A stretch of 64,000 bases of DNA, taken from positions 124,001 through 188,000 of the forward strand of contig JAHDQO010000021.1 in NCBI GenBank assembly GCA_018433765.1, read 5' to 3'. The first letter of the stretch is position 1; every line of letters begins with the position of its first letter. This stretch comes from Tissierellales bacterium. Lineage in GTDB: Bacteria; Bacillota; Clostridia; Tissierellales; Sedimentibacteraceae. A program made the translations under genes and the position numbers. Shown in pieces: positions 14,124 to 62,039 of the stretch. A model generated the notes under the pieces. The model was not told the DNA's origin and ran no database searches. It saw only the letters and a program-made list of their open reading frames with translations.

Positions 14124-14137
14124 TTTGGAAGTCAAAT

Positions 14138-15044
14138 ATAGGGGTCAGGCTTGACAAGTTGACTAATTAACTCTGCTTCTAATTTTTGATATAGCTGTTA
14201 TTGTTATATTTAATCTTTTTGCTAAATCTATACTTCTTATATCACATTCTTTTCCTGCTCTAATTATTATTTTTTTCCTTGCACTTGATATTTGTCTTGT
14301 CCTTGCTTTTGAAATTAATTCTTGTTTCGTAATTTTTTCTTCCTTAATTACTTCATTTATTATTTCTTCAATATTATTATTAATCTTATTCTCAATATCT
14401 GCTACAGGAGATTCTGATATCTTATATTCACATATATCTATATCCTCTAATTCTTCATCCATAAATTTTGCATATTCTTTTATAGCTTTTGTTTTATTTG
14501 ATAATATCATTTTTAATACAAAATCAACATCTATAAATGCATTACTACCTTTAATATATTCTCTGTAACTACTCCATTTATAATTAACACCTTCTATTAT
14601 ACCCGCTTTAACAGGATTCATATGTATATACTTTGTCAAATATATCAAATAACCATCCATATTGCATAAGATTGCCTTATATCGTTGTTGAAATACATGA
14701 CCTGTTCTATTATTTTTTTTATTATACTTTTGTGTATATACTTGTTGTATTCCCTGCATTATTTTTGACAAAGGAGTTTTATTTACTTGTATTAGTAAAT
14801 GTACATGATTATCCATTATACAATATGCATATAATTTGAAATCATATTTTTTCTTATATCTTTTTATTATTTCTATATAACTTTCTTTGTCTTTATCCTT
14901 ACCTAATATATATTCACCATTGTTTCCTCGTGCCATAACATGATATAATGCTCCTTCATAGTGTATCCTTAGTTTTCTCGCCATTATAATCACCTCAATA
15001 TGACTTGATTATATCATAACTCCTTTGTCAATTTGTCCCTATTT
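14138..15044 (-). mobile_element. RAYT element with REP-like ends
   Basis: The element encloses the transposase gene. One end reads ATAGGGGTCAGGCTTGACAA then GTTGACTAA (from 14138). The other end, read inverted, is ATAGGGACAAATTGACAA (about 15044-15025). The ends agree except that the second lacks the GTCAGGCTT block, which itself forms a small GTCA/TGAC hairpin. This layout matches IS200/IS605-like single-strand transposition ends. The first end is the sequence scattered elsewhere in the window. Confidence 0.7.
14163..14984 (-). CDS. REP-associated tyrosine transposase (RAYT, Y1_Tnp)
   Basis: About 273 residues. Family hallmarks are clear: ALYHVMARGNN at the N-terminus, the metal-binding HUH motif in YCIMDNHVHLLI, GHVFQQRYKA, catalytic Tyr in YLTKYIHMNPVKAG, and WSSY. 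The C-terminal 60 residues add a DnaA-like helix-turn-helix (SSARKKIIIRAGKECDIRSIDLAKRL), as in many Firmicute RAYTs. All key residues are present, so it may be active. ATG at 14984 has GAGG 8 bases upstream. The stop lies within the REP sequence. RAYTs are thought to mobilise REP/REPIN sequences in trans, and repeats matching its end occur nearby. Confidence 0.9.
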   Translation of the reverse strand: MARKLRIHYEGALYHVMARGNNGEYILGKDKDKESYIEIIKRYKKKYDFKLYAYCIMDNHVHLLIQVNKTPLSKIMQGIQQVYTQKYNKKNNRTGHVFQQRYKAILCNMDGYLIYLTKYIHMNPVKAGIIEGVNYKWSSYREYIKGSNAFIDVDFVLKMILSNKTKAIKEYAKFMDEELEDIDICEYKISESPVADIENKINNNIEEIINEVIKEEKITKQELISKARTRQISSARKKIIIRAGKECDIRSIDLAKRLNITITAISKIRSRVN

Positions 15045-20298: not shown

Positions 20299-20477
20299 TT
20301 CTGATCTCCTTTATATAAATTTATGATAAATAAATACACATACAGTTAAATTATACCACACAAACCAGTTATAGCATAGGGATAATTGGCTTGATTTGTC
20401 AAATTATTTAATATTTATGTTAGTTATTTGCTTTTACCATTACCAATTTAACTTGTTATGTCATAGCTTCTTAATTT

Positions 20478-20500
20478 GTCAACTTGTCAAGCCTGACCCC
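20478..20500 (-). repeat. solo REP-like unit
   Basis: GTCAACTTGTCAAGCCTGAC then CCC: the inverse of the RAYT end at 14141-14163, identical over its length. It starts 5 bases beyond the stop of the gene at 20506. Confidence 0.8.
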
Positions 20501-20505
20501 TTTCT

Positions 20506-20865
20506 TCACTTCGATAAAATAATGTTTATAAATTCATCTTTACTATATTTACCACATTTTTGCTTACCTTGTACCGTATAAACTCCATTTAATTGTGGAC
20601 ACTTATCTATTTTTAACTTTTCATAATTTTTCATCATACTTATTTTACATTCGCCAGTACAACTTAATAGTTTAAATTTGCCCCAGAAACTTATATCTAC
20701 AAATATAAAATTTTCTTCTTCATCTAAAGCTATAACTATTTGTTTCCCTGTAGAATACAAGGAATAAATAAAATTTTCATCTTTAAGTAATGAAATATAG
20801 TCAATAATTTTAACTTTATGGCTTAATCTTTTTTCAATTTCAGATGCATAATAATCTTTATTCAT
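20506..20865 (-). CDS. hypothetical soluble protein
   Basis: A 119-residue protein of unknown family. Alpha/beta pattern with a clear strand pair (IVIALDEEENFIFVDISFWGKF) and three cysteines (SCTGEC, KQKCGKY) that might be redox-active or bind metal. Its stop is followed after 5 bases by a REP-like unit, and a decayed RAYT copy lies just upstream, so this gene is bracketed by related repeats in opposite orientation. Confidence 0.6.
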   Translation of the reverse strand: MNKDYYASEIEKRLSHKVKIIDYISLLKDENFIYSLYSTGKQIVIALDEEENFIFVDISFWGKFKLLSCTGECKISMMKNYEKLKIDKCPQLNGVYTVQGKQKCGKYSKDEFINIILSK

Positions 20866-31626: not shown

Positions 31627-31818
31627 TCGTCTATTCACCTCATTTCAATCACCCTACATTTATTATAAATAAATATAGAGATCATTGCTTGATTTTACTT
31701 GCTGTTATTTAATTTTCTCTTTTAAATCATCACGCTTACAATATAAGGTTTTTATAATATCTTCACCACATACTATCCACCAATGTTCAAAATTGCACTT
31801 TTGAGGATTTTGCTTTTT

Positions 31819-31840
31819 GTCAATTTGTCAAGCCTGACCC
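31819..31840 (-). repeat. solo REP-like unit
   Basis: GTCAATTTGTCAAGCCTGAC then CC, the inverse of the RAYT end, 17 bases beyond the stop of the gene ending at 31858. Confidence 0.8.
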
Positions 31841-31857
31841 TATTTTTTCCTTCTGAA

Positions 31858-33954
31858 TTAAATTTGTATTTCATCTAATTTTAGCAAATCATATTCTTTA
31901 ATAATTTTAATCAATTTAATAGGATATTTAGGATCTGTAGCATATCCTGCTCTTCTTATAGTCCATGCTCCTAAAGTACTATCATTCATTACTTTTCTAA
32001 AAGGTTCATATCTTGACAATTTTAATAATATATTTTTATGATCTAGCCAACTTTCATTAATATTATGGTAAGCTCTGAAATTTGCATCAGTCCTAAAGCT
32101 AACCCCATTATAAACTTCCCAAGTGTTCGAAACCACAAAATCATTAGTTCCTGTTCCCTTTATTCCAAAAAGATTGTAAGATATCGTCCCATTATATTTA
32201 TCAACTGGAACACTTTGACCCCATCCCGTTTCTAGAATTGCTTGAGCTACTTGCAGCGCTGCAGACATGTCTGTTTTATTTTTTGAATCTATAGCCAAAG
32301 ATGATATTGTTTCAATAAATTTATCTTTTTCAACTACTTTTTCAGGACCAAACAACTCTTCAAGATATATTTTTAGAGAAATTTTTTCTGAATACAAAAT
32401 TTCATCTTCATACATAGCTTTGGCTTGTATAGTTACCTCTCCTTCATCTGTTTCTAAAGGAGTGAAAACAAATTCTTTTTCAGTAGTCTCTCCTATTATT
32501 CGTGATTGATTAGTAGTATTATTAGTTAATATATATTTTACATTATCAATATCAACATTGCTTTTAATAGAAAGCTTAGCATCATCAGTTAGCACCTGAC
32601 CTGGCCCCACTCCTATAAGCATAATTTTGGGACTTCCATCAATATTTACATTTACTTTTTCACTATCATGAGTTTTACCACTAGTATCCTTTACTCTTAC
32701 TAACAGTTGTTTTTTTCCTGCATATTCTGAATTAGGAAACCAAGAATAACTTCCAAAAGGTATTGTAGTTAATAAAGTTTCTTTTTCAGTAACTGGATCT
32801 ATTAATAAAAACTGTGTTTCAAGTACATCAAAATTTCTTGAGGCTAGTAAAGATACAGGTTTATTTATAGTCATATCATCATAAACACCTTTTAAACTTA
32901 ATTTACTATCAATATTAACTGAAGTATAATAATATTCACTTTCGTAAAAATTATCATTTCCATCATAAGCAACAACTCTTATTTTATAATCCCCATTTTG
33001 ATTAGGTTTTGGATACCATGTATAATAATCAAATGGATCTCGTTCATTTACAGTTATTATTTTTTCATTAGCTGTATTTATGAATTCATATTTAACATAT
33101 GTAGGTAAAAAATTAAGTTTTGGTTTTATAGATAATTCATCAGTTATAACCTCATTATATTCTATCCCTTCAAGTTGAACTTCTGGTATAACATCAATAG
33201 TAACTAAAGCCAAATCACCTGCTATTATTTCGTTATTTTCATCATATAATGCTACTACAATAATTTTTTCGCCGTCATCCTCTATTTTGGGGAGATATGT
33301 AATAACTTTATCTACAGCACTACTGTTAGCTACTTCAAAACCTTTAAGTGTATCTTTATCTATTAAAAACATTTTTATTTCTTTCGCTTCATTTTGAAAG
33401 CCTTCAGGTATATCTATTTCAATATTTGTATTACTAGTAATTATATTTTTGTTTTTAATTGATTTTATTTCAAAATCATAAAAAGGTTCAATGCTCGATT
33501 TTTTTGCAGAATCTACGTATACAGTTCTTGTTTCATTGTCCCATTCAATACCTATCTCAAGTGCATTACTAATTAATCTTAAAGGCACATAAGTACGGCT
33601 ATTTATAATAAATGGTGCTACATCACTGAATTGATATAATTCACCTTGATTATAATTTATTATTCTACTATCGATTTTAAGAAAAACGCTTTTATTTTCT
33701 TTTTCAACTAAAACAGTTCTATTGTCACCATCCCAAATTACCTTAGCCCCTATTGCTTCAGAAATAAATCTGATGGGTACTAAAGTTCTACTATTTACTA
33801 TTATTGGGCCAGATAAATTTGTAATATCTTTGTTGTCTACTATAAGTTTAATATCACTAGAAGCCCAACATTCATTATAACTACCAATTAATATTAATAC
33901 TGATATAAATATTGTAGTTAAAAATATTTTAGTTACTTTATGTTTTTTAGCCAT
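31858..33954 (-). CDS. cell-wall glucosaminidase with copper-amine-oxidase-like domains
   Basis: A 698-residue exported protein. Signal peptide at residues 1-31. Residues about 32-150 hold two copper amine oxidase N-terminal-like repeats (NSRTLVPIRFISEAIGAKVIW and NSRTYVPLRLISNALEIGIEW), which in Clostridia mark wall proteins. A middle region of Ig-like beta domains follows (about 160-540). The C-terminal 140 residues are a GH73-type N-acetylglucosaminidase domain with the catalytic Glu in AILETGWGQS, plus NLFGIKG and YATDPKYP. It would cut peptidoglycan glycan strands outside the cell. ATG at 33954 follows GAGGAG. Confidence 0.88.
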   Translation of the reverse strand: MAKKHKVTKIFLTTIFISVLILIGSYNECWASSDIKLIVDNKDITNLSGPIIVNSRTLVPIRFISEAIGAKVIWDGDNRTVLVEKENKSVFLKIDSRIINYNQGELYQFSDVAPFIINSRTYVPLRLISNALEIGIEWDNETRTVYVDSAKKSSIEPFYDFEIKSIKNKNIITSNTNIEIDIPEGFQNEAKEIKMFLIDKDTLKGFEVANSSAVDKVITYLPKIEDDGEKIIVVALYDENNEIIAGDLALVTIDVIPEVQLEGIEYNEVITDELSIKPKLNFLPTYVKYEFINTANEKIITVNERDPFDYYTWYPKPNQNGDYKIRVVAYDGNDNFYESEYYYTSVNIDSKLSLKGVYDDMTINKPVSLLASRNFDVLETQFLLIDPVTEKETLLTTIPFGSYSWFPNSEYAGKKQLLVRVKDTSGKTHDSEKVNVNIDGSPKIMLIGVGPGQVLTDDAKLSIKSNVDIDNVKYILTNNTTNQSRIIGETTEKEFVFTPLETDEGEVTIQAKAMYEDEILYSEKISLKIYLEELFGPEKVVEKDKFIETISSLAIDSKNKTDMSAALQVAQAILETGWGQSVPVDKYNGTISYNLFGIKGTGTNDFVVSNTWEVYNGVSFRTDANFRAYHNINESWLDHKNILLKLSRYEPFRKVMNDSTLGAWTIRRAGYATDPKYPIKLIKIIKEYDLLKLDEIQI

Positions 33955-34590: not shown

Positions 34591-34604
34591 GATTCGGCTC
34601 TTTT

Positions 34605-34665
34605 GTCAACCTGTCAAGCCTGACCCGCTCTTTTTGCTTATTTGTCAATTTGTCAAGCCTGACCC
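34605..34665 (-). repeat. two tandem REP-like units
   Basis: GTCAACCTGTCAAGCCTGAC at 34605-34624 and GTCAATTTGTCAAGCCTGAC at 34644-34663, each followed by CC, 39 bases apart in the same orientation. The second lies 10 bases beyond the stop of the gene ending at 34676. Confidence 0.8.
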
Positions 34666-34675
34666 CATTTCTTTT

Positions 34676-34846
34676 TCATTTATCTGCTATTTTTTTTATT
34701 GCATAGAGAATAAAATATCCCATTATAAGAATAGGCAACACAACTCTTAAACACAAAAACCCTTTTGGATTAAAATTAACGTTGGCATCAATTAGAAGTC
34801 CTACGAACCACGCAACAATTGTAGAAATAATAGCTCTGATGTACAT
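34676..34846 (-). CDS. small two-helix membrane protein
   Basis: About 56 residues, nearly all hydrophobic: helices at about 4-20 and 28-50 with a short polar loop (DANVNFNPKG) and a KKIADK tail. ATG at 34846 is preferred since GGAG lies 9 bases before it. It follows the next membrane protein by under 30 bases, so the two probably form one unit. Function unknown. Confidence 0.55.
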   Translation of the reverse strand: MYIRAIISTIVAWFVGLLIDANVNFNPKGFLCLRVVLPILIMGYFILYAIKKIADK

Positions 34847-37129: not shown

Positions 37130-37611
37130 GAACTTTTTCAACTGGGGTTGAGTTATGATGCTATCTTCGGCTGTTTTGTTCAGTTATTGGCTGAACGATT
37201 TACGATGTATGAGCAAATATGACAATATAATCAAACTAATGGAAGAACATTGCGGAAGTGGTATCCCTTGCTCCAAATATAATGTTTGTAGTTCTCTTTT
37301 GTAATTTGCTAATTGTCAATTATTGTTTTCTCATAGTGTTAATCATAGAAACACCGCTCCTTTGTCAACTTATCAAGCCTGACCCCGCTCTTTTCTTTAA
37401 TTTCATTATTTTACCCTTTTTATTCATAGCAATTGTTGAAAACAAGTAATGAGTTTAAAATTGTTTCATCAAATGTAAATAGCACCCATTAGATGCGTTG
37501 AATGCTTAGAAACCAATAAAGGCTTAGTTTAGTTTTGATTATTGTTATGAATAATTAGGGTTTAAGGTATATAATCAGTACTGATAATATCATATATTAT
37601 GAGGTGATTAA
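37130..37611. other. intergenic stretch with duplicated segment and REP unit
   Basis: 37130-37269 is the upstream part of the segment copied at 34.4-34.59 kb. 37364-37386 is a REP-like unit. The rest is AT-rich and carries the promoter of the XRE-type gene. No gene seen. Confidence 0.6.
37364..37386 (-). repeat. solo REP-like unit
   Basis: GTCAACTTATCAAGCCTGAC then CCC, one base off the RAYT end. Both this copy and the one at 34605 are followed by GCTCTTTT on the plus strand. Confidence 0.78.
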
Positions 37612-57273: not shown

Positions 57274-57470
57274 AGAGAACCAATAAGTTCTCTCAGATTG
57301 TTGACAAAGTCAACAAGATGACAGGCTTTTGAGAAACTCGAAGTTCGAGGCGTGCCGAAAGCGAGTAAGCGGAGCGTATATAGAAATACGTGAGCATTCT
57401 CGATTGAGGCAACAACGATGAAATTCGGGTTTGTCAATAGCCTGAGAGAACCAATAAGTTCTCTCAGATT
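57274..57470. repeat. 145-bp structured element inside a duplicated terminator (copy 1)
   Basis: Core 57300-57444 starts GTTGACAAAGTCAAC (hairpin) and ends TTTGTCAATAGCCTG, so TTGACAAA/TTTGTCAA form terminal inverted repeats. Internal hairpins: CTCGAAGTTCGAG and CGTATATAGAAATACG. The core is flanked by an exact 26-base direct repeat (57274-57299 and 57445-57470) that is itself a terminator hairpin, GAGAAC-CAATAA-GTTCTC. The T-run for minus-strand transcripts lies next to the left copy. See 61400-61592 for the second copy. Confidence 0.82.
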
Positions 57471-57492
57471 ACAAAGATGCCTATTAAATTGT

Positions 57493-57687
57493 TTATTCAG
57501 AAGCTTGTATTGCTCCCATTGGGCAGTAGTCTATGCATTTTTTACATTTGATACATTTTCCTTGATCTATTGTAGGCGCTCTATATCCTTTTTGTTTTAT
57601 TGCATCTACGGGACATACTGTTCTAGCAGGACATACATGATTCTCAACGCATCTTACGTTGTCTACTATTACTTTAATTTTAAACAC
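57493..57687 (-). CDS. ferredoxin-like 4Fe-4S protein
   Basis: A 61-64-residue electron carrier. The C-terminal cluster motif CIKCKKCIDYCPMGAI is canonical. The N-terminal half has Cys in RCVENHVCPARTVCPVDAI, a non-standard spacing that may bind a second cluster with partner ligands or be a relic. The GTG at 57687 overlaps the AAGGAG site, so an ATT at 57678, 8 bases past that site, is the better-placed start. Last gene of the gdt1-Nudix-deacylase unit, 31 bases after the deacylase; the doubled terminator at 57274-57470 follows. Confidence 0.85.
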   Translation of the reverse strand: MFKIKVIVDNVRCVENHVCPARTVCPVDAIKQKGYRAPTIDQGKCIKCKKCIDYCPMGAIQASE

Positions 57688-57718
57688 TCCTTATAAACAG
57701 TATTAAAAGTTATACTTG

Positions 57719-58213
57719 CTAGCTAATGCTTATTATATTTATTTTATTCCCACACCATTTTAAAAATTTACTTAAATCGTTAGCACTAAAATTTAGTGTA
57801 GATGTATTTATATTTGGATGGAAATTTACATATTCTTCTTTAAATATATCATAATCTAAATATACTATTACTTCATTTTCTTTATCGTTTATTAATCCAA
57901 ATATTGATACCGATCCTGGTGTTAAGCCAAGATATTTTATCATTCTTTTTTCTGATGCGAAGCCTATATTCTTCTCATTAATATTTTTTTCAAAATCATT
58001 TATATTTAATTTTTTATTTTCTTTAATTACTACTAGATAATGTTTATTTCCTTTCCCATTTCTCAAAAATAAGTTTTTACAATGTATGCCTTTTAAATCC
58101 GAAGTATATTTATTTGCTTCTTCACTAGTATAAACTGGCGGATGAGCTCGCTTTTCATAATTTATTTCCAATTTCTCAAGTATATCATATACTAATTTCT
58201 CTTTATCTTCCAT
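57719..58213 (-). CDS. YbaK/ProX-type aminoacyl-tRNA deacylase
   Basis: A 164-residue protein of the prolyl-tRNA-synthetase-associated editing family (PrdX/ProXp). Features: YDILEKLEINYEKRAHPPVYTSEEA at the N-terminus, KNLFLRNGKGNKHYLVVIKE and LGLTPGSVSIFGLIND. Such proteins remove alanine or another wrong amino acid from tRNA-Pro in trans. ATG at 58213 follows GGAGGT. Second from last in the operon. Confidence 0.88.
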   Translation of the reverse strand: MEDKEKLVYDILEKLEINYEKRAHPPVYTSEEANKYTSDLKGIHCKNLFLRNGKGNKHYLVVIKENKKLNINDFEKNINEKNIGFASEKRMIKYLGLTPGSVSIFGLINDKENEVIVYLDYDIFKEEYVNFHPNINTSTLNFSANDLSKFLKWCGNKINIISIS

Positions 58214-58237
58214 TATATTAACACCTCCAGTTACAAT

Positions 58238-58852
58238 CTATTTTATTTTTTTTATAAAATTGTAAATTATTTTAGCAGTCAACCCCCATATTATGTAATC
58301 ATTATATTTATAAAAATATACAGGATATTCAATATTTCCCCAGTTATAATTCTTACCATTTTGTATCATATTAGTTGGAAAAGTATCATCCATAACAGGC
58401 TTATATTTTATTTTATAAGATTTAGGCTCATTTTCTAAAAAGAATTCAAGAGGAACAGTAAAAAGCTTAGAAACTTCATCTTTATTATATATTAATTTAT
58501 TTACTTCTGTATCATGTAAATACCCAAGATAGGGATAAATAAAAAAATTATTTTTTCCAACTATATAATCTAGTCCAGATATTATTTCTATCTTTTCTTT
58601 ATCTATCCCTATTTCTTCATATGTTTCTCTAACTGCTGCTTCCTTAAAAGTTTCATCTAGTTCAACTTGTCCACCCGGAAAAGAAATTTCACCCGGCTGT
58701 CTGTCAATATTTAATGATCTTACTTCAAAAACTAAATGCATTTCTCCATTTATTTTTACTAATGGAACTAAAACTGAATAATAATAACTAACTTCTATTG
58801 GAGAAACTTTAGTTTTTTTAATTTTATTTCTAATCTCATCTAATTTCATCAT
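58238..58852 (-). CDS. Nudix hydrolase, CoA pyrophosphatase-like
   Basis: About 204 residues. The Nudix box is complete: GQVELDETFKEAAVRETYEEIG fits G-x5-E-x7-REUxEExGU. The upstream RQPGEISFPGG matches the UPF0035 signature of NudL/CoA diphosphatases, which cut coenzyme A to 4'-phosphopantetheine and ADP. The ATG at 58852 is favoured since AAGGTG lies 9 bases before it; a GTG at 58864 overlaps that site. Follows gdt1 by under 30 bases. Confidence 0.88.
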   Translation of the reverse strand: MMKLDEIRNKIKKTKVSPIEVSYYYSVLVPLVKINGEMHLVFEVRSLNIDRQPGEISFPGGQVELDETFKEAAVRETYEEIGIDKEKIEIISGLDYIVGKNNFFIYPYLGYLHDTEVNKLIYNKDEVSKLFTVPLEFFLENEPKSYKIKYKPVMDDTFPTNMIQNGKNYNWGNIEYPVYFYKYNDYIIWGLTAKIIYNFIKKIK

Positions 58853-58881
58853 ATTAACATTCACCTTGTTTAATTTTATTA

Positions 58882-59565
58882 CTAATTACTTTTATTTTTT
58901 TTCTTTTCACTTTTTTTTAATAAAAGCCTACTTATTAATAAACCAGCTATTATAATCAATACAACTATTAATAATGCTTTTCTATTTTCATATCCAATAA
59001 AAAATTCACTTGTATTAAATAGTTTCAGAATTCCAAATTGTAAAAAAATTATTCCTGATGCAATTTGGATTACTGTATTTGATATTTTATCTCCTATCTT
59101 TGCACCTATAAAAACACCTATGCAGCTTGTTACAAGCATTCCTGTAACAGTTCCTATAAGTATAAAGACAGGATATACTGCATCCATAGACAATGTCATA
59201 GCAGTTAACTGTGTTTTATCTCCTAATTCACCAATAAAGAAAGCACTGGCAACAGTTAAAACTGCCCCATGCTTAAAAGATTTCTTATTATCTTCATCAT
59301 CTTCATCATTTATTAAAGACCATAAGCCAAAAACAATAAATAATATACCTGCTAACACTTGAAGAATGTCTGGATTGATCAAATTTGATAGACATGATCC
59401 TAGCACTATTGCTATACTATGATTTATAACTACACCTATAAAAATACCTAAAAAAACTTGACCTGCATTGTATCTTGTTGCAAAAGTCATAGCAAGAATT
59501 TGAGTTTTATCACCCATTTCAGCTATAAATATAAAAAAGAATGCCTGTAAAAATTCTTGAATCAT
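58882..59565 (-). CDS. TMEM165/GDT1 (UPF0016) cation exporter
   Basis: A 227-residue membrane protein with six to seven helices and the two hallmark E-x-G-D-K/R-T/S motifs: IAEMGDKTQILAMTF near residue 15 and IGELGDKTQLTAMTL near 115. The central loop is acidic (NDEDDEDNKK). Characterised bacterial relatives such as MneA export manganese. ATG at 59565 follows GGAGG. It is first of a four-gene operon with Nudix, deacylase and ferredoxin. A leader with two terminators and a GTTTACA palindrome lies upstream, so expression is likely controlled. Confidence 0.9.
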   Translation of the reverse strand: MIQEFLQAFFFIFIAEMGDKTQILAMTFATRYNAGQVFLGIFIGVVINHSIAIVLGSCLSNLINPDILQVLAGILFIVFGLWSLINDEDDEDNKKSFKHGAVLTVASAFFIGELGDKTQLTAMTLSMDAVYPVFILIGTVTGMLVTSCIGVFIGAKIGDKISNTVIQIASGIIFLQFGILKLFNTSEFFIGYENRKALLIVVLIIIAGLLISRLLLKKSEKKKNKSN

Positions 59566-59596
59566 AAAACCTCCACAAGATAATTATATTATTAAT

Positions 59597-59615
59597 GTTT
59601 ACAATTAATGTAAAC
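59597..59615. promoter_or_regulatory. palindrome before gdt1
   Basis: GTTTACA-ATTAA-TGTAAAC, 31 bases before the gdt1 start. It could be an operator for a metal regulator; no family was matched. Confidence 0.5.
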
Positions 59616-59673
59616 CCATTTTTACCTTATTTATACTTTACACTTTATTCAAGCTTGAGTCAACCAAAAACAA

Positions 59674-59725
59674 ATGAGACCAGCAATTATAAGCTGGTCT
59701 CATGCCTCCTATATAAATTAGGAGG
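59674..59725 (-). terminator. second leader terminator of the gdt1 operon, with preceding hairpin
   Basis: Minus strand: hairpin CCTCCT/AGGAGG (59725-59705), then ATGAGACCAGC/GCTGGTCTCAT (59703-59674) followed by TTTGTTTTT. It is a strong intrinsic terminator 109 bases before the gdt1 start. Confidence 0.75.
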
Positions 59726-59928
59726 ACTATTGTATTATGGATAAAATAGCAACTAATTTATAGAAAGATATCTCAACTTACTTTATCATCTAGTATCGAC
59801 TTCCTTCCCTTTATTATTAAGTTGTTTTTACCCTACAAAAATATTATATCCATTTCAATTTGTTTTATAATGGAACCTAATGGTAACCTAACAAATTTTT
59901 TTTAGAACAATTAACTTATAAGAAAAAA

Positions 59929-59950
59929 GAGGCCGGCATTTGCCGACCTC
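59929..59950 (-). terminator. first leader terminator upstream of gdt1
   Basis: Minus strand GAGGTCGGC-AAAT-GCCGGCCTC then six T. A GCTTCT/AGAAGC hairpin lies just before it (about 59953-59971). Its upstream transcript has no gene, so it may end a short RNA. Confidence 0.72.
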
Positions 59951-60269
59951 AGCTTCTTTTATTTAGAAGCATTAATAGGAGTACTCCATTTTATTTAAGA
60001 TTAAAAATATAACAATTTTATAAAAAGTATTTTTTACTTTTTTTACTTTAGTTATATAATTAATCTGTAATATTATTATGTACTTTTTATTTTTTATTAT
60101 GCAGGAATTTGATGGTAATTTTAACACGAAATTTGTATTATATTTTTACTATTATTATATAAATTAAATATAATAATATTTTTAATTTGATTTTAATTTA
60201 GTATTAATATAATATAAATAATTGAGGTTTATTATAGTATTAGTAAATTATATATACGAGGTATAAATT

Positions 60270-61385
60270 ATGGAAAAGAATTTAAACATAGTTATAACAA
60301 CTGCTCCTTTTGGAAATGGTCACAAAATGGTAGCTAATGCTTTAAAAAATGCTTTTATCAAAAAAGGATATAACAACATTAAAGTTGTAGATATATTTAC
60401 TGAATCACATCCAAAAATTACAGATGGAATTAAAAAAGCTTATATAAAAAGTTATGATTATAAGTACGCATATTCTTTCTTTTATTATGGTGTAAACAAA
60501 ATTGCTGATAATGAAAAAATAATTAGACCATATACTAAGTTTGGTACAAATAGTTTAAATAAATTAATAAAAGAATTTGAACCTGATATAATCATTAATA
60601 CTTATCCATTATCCTTTGTAAAAGGAACTAAATACAAAGCAGAAAAAAACGTTAGCATACCAGTCTTTAACGTTATAACAGATTTCTGCGTTCATAAGTT
60701 ATGGATAAGTGAAGAAATTGATAAATTTTATATAGCAACTCAGGAACTTCAAGAAGAACTAGAAAAAATGAATATTCCTATTGAAAAAACTGTTGTATCA
60801 GGTATTCCTATAAGAGATAGTTTTGAAAAGTCATTAAATACAAATTATTTATATGAAAAATATAATTTTAACAGAAATAAAAAAACAATTTTAATCAGTG
60901 CTGGTGCTTTCGGAGTATTAAAAGATATTAAAAGTATATGTAAAAAACTATGTTCATATAGTAATTTGCAAGTTGCAGTAGTTTGTGGAAACAACAAAGA
61001 ACTTAAAAACGAACTTGACAGTTTATGCATTAACAATTTGAAAGCATTCGGCTTTATAGAAAATATTCACGAATTATATAATATATCAAATTGTATGATT
61101 ACAAAACCGGGAGGAATTACATTAAGTGAAGCATTGGCGGTACAAATACCATTAATATTATTTAATCCAATCCCCGGTCAAGAAAAAGAAAATGCACTAT
61201 TTTTTAAAGAAAAAGGAGCTGCTGTAATAGCTAACAACAAAGGCGAAATAATAAGTAATATACTACATTTATGTACTAATGATAATGAATCAAATAAAAT
61301 GAAAGAGAATATGAAAAAAATATATAATAAATATTCAACATATACTATAGTTGATGATGTACTTCTTAGTGTAGAAGGTTTTTAA
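60270..61385 (+). CDS. UgtP-like glycolipid glycosyltransferase (GT28)
   Basis: A 371-residue GT-B enzyme of the MGDG synthase / diacylglycerol glucosyltransferase family. N-terminal TAPFGNGHKMVANAL matches the G-N/A-G-H acceptor-lipid motif. The C-terminal KPGGITLSEALAVQIP and GQEKENA match the UDP-sugar site. It would transfer glucose or galactose to diacylglycerol on the inner membrane face. ATG at 60270 follows GAGGT. Monocistronic; the second structured element lies in its terminator. Confidence 0.9.
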   Translation: MEKNLNIVITTAPFGNGHKMVANALKNAFIKKGYNNIKVVDIFTESHPKITDGIKKAYIKSYDYKYAYSFFYYGVNKIADNEKIIRPYTKFGTNSLNKLIKEFEPDIIINTYPLSFVKGTKYKAEKNVSIPVFNVITDFCVHKLWISEEIDKFYIATQELQEELEKMNIPIEKTVVSGIPIRDSFEKSLNTNYLYEKYNFNRNKKTILISAGAFGVLKDIKSICKKLCSYSNLQVAVVCGNNKELKNELDSLCINNLKAFGFIENIHELYNISNCMITKPGGITLSEALAVQIPLILFNPIPGQEKENALFFKEKGAAVIANNKGEIISNILHLCTNDNESNKMKENMKKIYNKYSTYTIVDDVLLSVEGF

Positions 61386-61399
61386 TTAATGTGTTTAAA

Positions 61400-61592
61400 A
61401 GGCCATATATAATATGGCCTCAAATTGTTGACAAAGTCAACAAGATGGTAGGCTTTTGAGAAACTCGAAGTTCGAGGCGTGCCGAAAGCGAGTAAGCGGA
61501 GCGTATATAGAAATACGTGAGCATTCTCGATTGAGGCAACAACGATGAAATTCGGTTTTGTCAATAGCCTAAGGCTATATATCACATGGCCT
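61400..61592. repeat. 145-bp structured element inside a duplicated terminator (copy 2)
   Basis: Core 61427-61571 has the same length as copy 1 and differs at about four positions. Flanking hairpins: AGGCCATATATAATATGGCC at 61400 (T at 61420) and AGGCTATATATCACATGGCC at 61572 (T at 61592), 18 of 21 bases alike, in direct orientation. The T-rich tract TTCTTATTT follows the right copy, in line with the original UgtP gene terminator. CAAATT precedes the core here and CAGATT in copy 1, so the left boundary could be six bases earlier. Confidence 0.82.
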
Positions 61593-61595
61593 TTC

Positions 61596-62039
61596 TTATT
61601 TAATATGCTTTTGTATTACATTAAATAATGTATTCTTAAAGTTCTCATCTTGATTGTTAGTTCTTTTTTTAGGACCTTTAGTTCTTTTACCGGCTTTCCT
61701 CATTTTCTGACCTATATATCTTGTTTGGAGTAAATTTTCTATGTTTCTTTCTGTAAAAATAAATCCATTCGTGTGAATTACACATCTTGCCTTATTCATT
61801 GCCAAACTTGCAAGTCCATAATCTTGAGTTACTACAATATCTTCATTTTTAAGTATTTCAATTATCTTATAATCAACAGCATCTCTTCCTTTTTCTACAG
61901 TTATTACAGTATAACTGCTAGATATATAGTGTGCCATATCTACTACTGTAACAAGGTCTATATTAAAATGATTTGCTGCTTCTTCACAAGTCTTTTTCAC
62001 TCCCTGAGGACATCCATCTCCATCAATTATAATTCGCAT
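61596..62039 (-). CDS. UPF0178 (YaiI/YqxD, DUF188) family protein
   Basis: A 147-residue protein with a PIN-like fold: IIDGDGCPQGVKKTCEEAANHF at the N-terminus, DMAHYISSSYTVITVEKGRDAVDY, VVTQDYGLASLAMNKA, and a basic C-terminus (KMRKAGKRTKGPKKRTNNQ). Conserved aspartates suggest a metal-dependent nuclease; biochemical role unproven. ATG at 62039 follows AAGGAG. It converges on the UgtP-like gene, separated by the structured element. Confidence 0.88.
   Translation of the reverse strand: MRIIIDGDGCPQGVKKTCEEAANHFNIDLVTVVDMAHYISSSYTVITVEKGRDAVDYKIIEILKNEDIVVTQDYGLASLAMNKARCVIHTNGFIFTERNIENLLQTRYIGQKMRKAGKRTKGPKKRTNNQDENFKNTLFNVIQKHIK

Follow-up and report, generated by a model that had tools for sequence, protein, structure and literature searches.

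A short IS1182-type element that very probably duplicates whole terminator-like hairpins in a Tissierellales bacterium

Introduction

How does a short piece of DNA without any gene come to lie between two copies of one terminator-like hairpin and, a second time, between two copies of an unrelated one? This question is raised by a 64,000-nucleotide stretch of a Tissierellales bacterium (NCBI GenBank assembly GCA_018433765.1, contig JAHDQO010000021.1, positions 124,001 to 188,000 of the forward strand; hereafter the window), in which two nearly identical elements occur at 57.3 and 61.4 kb, each framed by direct duplicates of the local hairpin. In most cut-and-paste DNA transposons, the length of the target duplication hardly varies. 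Based on sequence comparisons, we propose that the element is very probably a non-autonomous miniature inverted-repeat transposable element (MITE) of the IS1182 type, which targets terminator-like stem-loops and duplicates the whole stem-loop upon insertion.

Results

Copy A of the element (57,294-57,444, plus strand) is 151 bp long, reads CAGATTGTTGACAAAG...GTTTGTCAATAGCCTG and is flanked by hairpin duplicates at 57,274-57,293 (AGAGAACCAATAAGTTCTCT, read directly) and 57,445-57,464. The duplicates are identical at 20/20 positions with an exact match extending to 26 bases, and CAGATT directly follows the right one. Copy B (61,421-61,571, plus strand) is 97% identical to copy A and lies between duplicates at 61,400-61,420 (AGGCCATATATAATATGGCCT), just past the stop of the gene at 60,270-61,385, and at 61,572-61,592, between convergent genes; these match at 18 of 21 positions. 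An earlier note, made from the window alone, had described both copies, their similarity, their flanking duplicates and the lack of sequence relation between the two terminators, all of which was borne out by direct reading. Its length of 145 bp had to be corrected to 150-151 bp, with CAG...CTG ends, a start of CAGATTGTTGACAAAG and an end of GTTTGTCAATAGCCTG whose last base is G or A. The terminal inverted repeats that it reported are present, but its sequence TTGACAAA is the inner part of repeats of about 15 bp, CAGATTGTTGACAAA and CAGGCTATTGACAAA, which match at 12/15 positions. It had further claimed that the stem copy beside the T-run is kept; instead, neither site has lost a hairpin copy, and at copy A the A-run left of the left hairpin is the T-run of a minus-strand terminator. 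Within copy A, the left end (57,294-57,320, plus strand) holds the outer inverted repeat inside a small hairpin, TTGTTGAC-aaa-GTCAACAA, and is followed by a long fold-back core (57,322-57,444, plus strand) running from CAGGCTTTTGAG through the right inverted repeat TTTGTCAATAGCCTG. At 151 bp the element has no coding capacity and thus carries no IS1182 transposase, which makes it a MITE of that family and not an IS1182 member in the strict sense. Rfam covariance models gave zero matches up to E = 1 in the window between 54,000 and 64,000.

The host genome (G000; 4.19 Mb in 38 contigs) contains at least 44 copies of the core besides solo left ends, and no two of these copies lie at the same hairpin. 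Where both flanks were readable, 34/36 copies showed a direct duplication that comprised the local hairpin in full (18-29 bp, 98% identical on average). When left flanks were paired with right flanks of other copies as a control, the same score was reached in 1/1260 pairings, which, together with the number of copies, excludes chance. The duplicated hairpins differ at every locus and have no common sequence, whereas the core stays about 97% identical. Hairpins are thus duplicated at nearly all sites, as expected for the target duplication of a MITE, and not deleted without duplication as in IS1272-like replacement. Several contigs start or stop inside copies, and four pairs of such halves could be rejoined through matching hairpins (L030/L045, L034/L043, L042/L044 and L041/L038), so the element itself broke the assembly. 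A search of plasmid records yielded no copies.

Two variants stand out among the host copies. L057 (C13:349058) and L133 (C38:71807) form a longer subfamily of about 223 bp, in which a common insert (about 73 bp) extends the left fold-back arm. At L010 (C13:14216-14374), the right hairpin differs from the left one at 3 loop bases and from the reverse complement of the left one at only 1, which would fit an inversion of the hairpin at the time of insertion or later.

Possible autonomous partners were searched among relatives through the transposase domain PF13751, followed by comparison of the ends. This revealed elements of about 1.6 kb with ends CAG.(C/T)TG..GACAAA and whole duplicated hairpins on both flanks. 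Closest to the window element are the ends of L194, CAGATTGATTACAAA and CAGGCTGTTGACAAA, so that the MITE has its ends in common with IS1182 elements of the same order, not of the same genome. The intact open reading frame at L201 encodes an IS1182 transposase (NF033551 transpos_IS1182, 434 bits against the NCBIfam cut-off of 270; PF05598 and PF13751). The full-length, transposase-bearing relative that the earlier note had suggested looking for hence exists. Among the examined copies with such ends, 15/16 showed whole-hairpin duplications of 18-30 bp. One 1581-bp insertion sequence (IS) occurs at seven places in G070, with six duplications of 21, 22, 23, 24, 24 and 30 bp and two different hairpins at the seventh. 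A single enzyme hence yields duplications of various lengths, in agreement with the hairpin entered. Intact IS1182 elements with whole-hairpin duplications (18-30 bp) were found in the same order, in other Bacillota and in phages, including named records of Acetoanaerobium noterae (24 bp), Sutcliffiella horikoshii (30 bp) and Peribacillus (24 bp) as well as Streptococcus phages (18-26 bp). A group with other ends, GAGGCCACTGAAAAA (L207-L213 in G074, L217 in G098), produced duplications of 9-10 bp comprising one arm and part of the loop, at hairpins rich in GGGGACAGGTTC. This indicates a different cutting geometry within the same family, and whole-hairpin duplication is therefore not general for IS1182. 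Several IS1182 loci, including 3/6 plasmid records and one phage record, had no recognisable pair of ends or duplication.

These relatives bear on the best-surviving alternative, in which other machinery (an IS200/IS605-type HUH/TnpB system, a retroelement resembling group II introns or a different DDE family) moves the element, which would have come to resemble IS1182 at its ends by convergence. Insertion at terminators is known for group IIC introns, and no intact IS1182 gene was found in the host genome, both of which would fit. However, IS1182 elements of the same order have the 15-bp ends as well as this unusual duplication of whole hairpins, whereas IS200/IS605 elements and group II introns are not known to make such a target duplication. 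We therefore consider this explanation improbable.

Two further loci in the host genome carry IS1182-type sequences. At L225:2045-2077 (C32:19564), a terminator-like hairpin is followed by a solo IS1182-type end, CAGGCTGTTGACAAA, which is not a MITE and probably is the scar of a lost IS1182. At L226:1955-2090 (C33:230350), decayed copies of another hairpin enclose a further MITE of the IS1182 type, which is shorter (about 85 bp).

In the host genome, the length of the duplication tracked the span of the hairpin with a Spearman rho of 0.97 and a mean difference of 0.9 bp, the exact boundary being uncertain by 1-2 bp at the A/T-rich terminator ends. Such ends could make the hairpin match merely apparent: a MITE mobilised by a loosely staggered transposase would then seem to duplicate hairpins where A- and T-runs bound the terminators. 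Against this, length follows hairpin span one to one from 18 to 30 bp in two independent sets, the second being the IS1182 copies (rho 0.97 as well), of which 11/15 have a duplication of exactly the hairpin span. A loose stagger is thus slightly less probable still than foreign machinery. By these comparisons, it is the shape of the target, and not solely the enzyme, that determines how long the duplication becomes.

The hairpins entered by the element are preceded by 5.2 A and followed by 3.9 T (mean per 8 bases), compared to 2.7 and 3.0 expected from window composition, which fits intrinsic terminators that would often act in both directions. Open frames could be recognised both to the left and to the right of 33 sites, and the neighbouring genes there were convergent in 10, codirectional in 19 and divergent in 4 cases; strands were taken from the longest open frame, and individual calls may be wrong. 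No orientation bias of the element relative to the genes was seen, with 8 forward and 11 reverse copies at the codirectional sites. At L131:5341-5390 (C23:83341), the left-end hairpin occurs alone, extended by flanking inverted sequence (CCATTCATCTTGTTGAC aaa GTCAACAAGATGAATGG) and a T-run, and resembles a terminator that was built out of the element.

Elements of 148-151 bp with the same architecture and about 75% identity are present in G005, G012 and G018, which belong to the same family as the host, and in G056 from another family of the order. Hairpin duplications accompany 12/13 of these elements in G012 and 30/40 in G056. The latter genome has about 50 copies, some in tandem arrays (hairpin-element-hairpin-element-hairpin) that repeat every 175-178 bp. 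Members were recovered in 12/199 relatives by a covariance model, the weakest being marginal, and L274, which lies in a genome from another part of the phylum, is a related element whose left end is the same. Fold-backs of another lineage (L270 and L276, G430) display the apical motif of the core, CCGCAGCGTAT-n-ATACGTGAGGAT, without the left hairpin; the core may, judging by this motif, be older than its present ends. In the window at 57,465-57,470 and at L019, the bases CAGATT(GTTG) past the right hairpin form a remnant of a further left end, which suggests that tandem hairpin-element arrays have collapsed there.

Sites before insertion could be observed as well. The phage Javan90 equals the reconstructed empty site of the IS1182 insertion in Javan87 at 466/466 bases and has a single 26-bp hairpin. 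It is 1564 bp shorter, which is exactly the distance between the hairpin copies of Javan87, i.e. the IS plus one hairpin. One hairpin is thus present before insertion and two flank the IS afterwards, and the 466 bases show no further change. As to the MITE, the junction that harbours copy B (gene 60,270-61,385 and convergent gene 61,596-62,039) has a single hairpin and no element at L220, L222 and L223. These loci belong to metagenome-assembled genomes named Tissierellia or Clostridiales, with 60-62% identity in the product of the neighbouring gene. Likewise, the site of the G056 MITE at L153 has a single hairpin in the congener G043. The hairpin sequences at these MITE empty sites are too diverged for base-by-base matching. 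No empty-site relatives were found for the Sutcliffiella or Peribacillus plasmid insertions or for phage phiJH1301-3.

The empty sites address two further explanations. A composite regulatory RNA or terminator cassette that is inherited with its genes and includes the hairpin pair would fit the strongly structured interior, which covaries like RNA. However, the hairpins differ at each locus around a nearly constant core, the same gene junctions in relatives have one hairpin and no core, and the orientation to the neighbours is mixed, which makes a cassette very improbable. Equally remote is that the hairpins arose by recombination, or that the element entered between pre-existing tandem terminators without transposition, as the phage pair gained a hairpin with the IS and a single IS made six different duplications in one genome, even though the tandem arrays of G056 imply that recombination between duplicates occurs and two different hairpins flank L018 and L200. 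The earlier view of a small non-coding mobile element that targets and duplicates terminator hairpins is thus upheld by copies across the genome, empty sites and autonomous relatives. Its further ideas, that termination is preserved and that the element contributes a structured RNA, which might be functional, are plausible. Neither a general lack of flanking duplicates nor a fixed place in conserved operons, which the note had named as possible objections, was encountered.

Some observations weigh against an IS1182-type MITE. Two of the 36 copies had no scored duplication, namely L018 with two different hairpins and L025 with a loop indel, and a quarter of the copies in G056 scored under the threshold, in part through diverged loops. 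Among very close strains, no empty/filled pair was found for the MITE itself. An intact IS1182 transposase was not found in the host genome, which has a fragment at C13:421139 and the solo end; as repeats may be missing from an assembly of 38 contigs, the cognate transposase was possibly missed.

The interior of the element folds strongly. The plus strand of copy A reaches -62.6 kcal/mol (z -8.0) and the minus strand -46 (z -5.9), and the plus strand folds better in nearly all copies. Across 15 members from five genomes, compensatory changes occurred at 20 pairs, with 75 double-changed cells compared to 27.7 in shuffles; a two-pair helix was misplaced by one column in the assumed structure, which can only have lowered these counts. 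The signal was lost when partners were slid by 1-3 columns. The pairs of the left-end hairpin are 99% kept across the five genomes, with covariation. In these alignments, members from different genera keep the fold-back through compensatory changes. Covariation speaks for a conserved fold, from which the identity of an RNA does not follow, because a plain inverted repeat under gene conversion could also covary. An asymmetry of G.U over A.C pairs was considered as a sign that the plus strand acts as RNA. It is present in the copies and not significant at the consensus level (11 versus 4, p = 0.12), and was dropped. It is conceivable, yet rather doubtful, that the 151-nt fold-back is a functional nucleic acid, maintained at 148-151 nt in at least two families either as a single-stranded transposition substrate folded on the plus strand or as an RNA at mRNA 3' ends.

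Another dispersed repeat, TTTGTCAACTTGTCAAGCCTGACCCC, partly inverted, occurs in the window at 14,134-14,181, 20,475-20,526, 31,816-31,867, 34,602-34,692 and 37,361-37,412, near duplications of 163 bp and 93 bp at 34.4 and 37.1 kb.

Discussion

At the level of sequence, the element is mobile (at least 44 unrelated sites), its insertions come with a duplication of the whole hairpin that is as long as the hairpin, and it has both its ends and this type of duplication in common with IS1182. In DDE chemistry, the 3' ends of an element are joined to staggered positions of the target, and the stagger, once repaired, gives a duplication of equal length. The target in this case is a stem-loop, nearly always placed like an intrinsic terminator, and strand transfer would occur at its two 5' feet, which lie on opposite strands. 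Repair of the gaps would then copy the whole stem-loop onto both sides, so that the stagger would equal the stem-loop, as in pathway b of PMC5678879. The transposase may read an extruded cruciform or a single-stranded hairpin, and the common ends and type of duplication suggest that an IS1182 transposase acts on the MITE in trans. Both hairpin duplicates presumably still terminate transcription. With a terminator hairpin kept on each side, insertion would be nearly harmless to gene expression, which we propose as the reason for the high copy number.

One enzyme makes target duplications that range from 21 to 30 bp according to the stem-loop entered, and must therefore read the structure of its target. 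Structure-guided DNA transposition, so far suspected, is now directly testable with natural substrates and the empty/filled phage pair. Landing in terminators with a hairpin left on each side suggests a way to fill a genome almost without harm, and doubled terminators and tandem hairpin-element arrays affect the annotation of 3' ends. Should the fold-back prove functional, the element would represent a hairpin-hunting lineage with its own structural module, a parasite of IS1182 that gives its host doubled terminators.

How does this compare to known systems? In ISfinder, IS1182 duplications are reportedly highly variable in length. Some IS1182 members target palindromes, according to a 2015 review as cited in PMC4923244. 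The accessible part of the report on ISCbo5, an IS1182 element of C. botulinum group III and C. novyi, describes all sites but one as gene-end hairpins, likely transcription stops, 'surrounding' the element (PMC3098183). ISCbo5 thus resembles the window element in type and in its hairpins at gene ends, but is an autonomous IS, and in that part of the text the hairpin is not described as the duplication, nor is a length coupling or a MITE (PMC3098183). IS1272/TnSha1, IS1182-family elements of staphylococci, target stem-loops without primary-sequence preference (PMC4923244, PMC5678879), and several of their targets were confirmed as terminators by RNA-seq (PMC4923244). Unlike the window element, they delete or replace the hairpin, and a target duplication is absent (PMC4923244, PMC5678879). 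Duplication of the whole stem-loop was drawn as a hypothetical alternative (Fig. 13, pathway b, in PMC5678879), and the elements described here behave like this pathway. Bacterial MITEs such as Chunjie, QMITE and RUP/BOX/SPRITE are likewise short, gene-free, intergenic, high-copy and strongly structured with inverted repeats, but their review mentions neither IS1182 nor hairpin targets (PMC10969869). ISs of REP palindromes such as ISPpu9 also have a palindromic target but, as far as the accessible part of the source describes, recognise one repeat family (PMC1525189), whereas the hairpins of the window element have no common sequence and are wholly duplicated. In the literature searched, which covered few of the subscription journals, we found no paper on an IS1182 MITE or on length-coupled duplication of whole hairpins. 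It is already known that IS1182 members target terminator hairpins and that IS1272 deletes them; the MITE family, its conserved fold and the natural evidence that hairpin geometry sets the length of the duplication look new.

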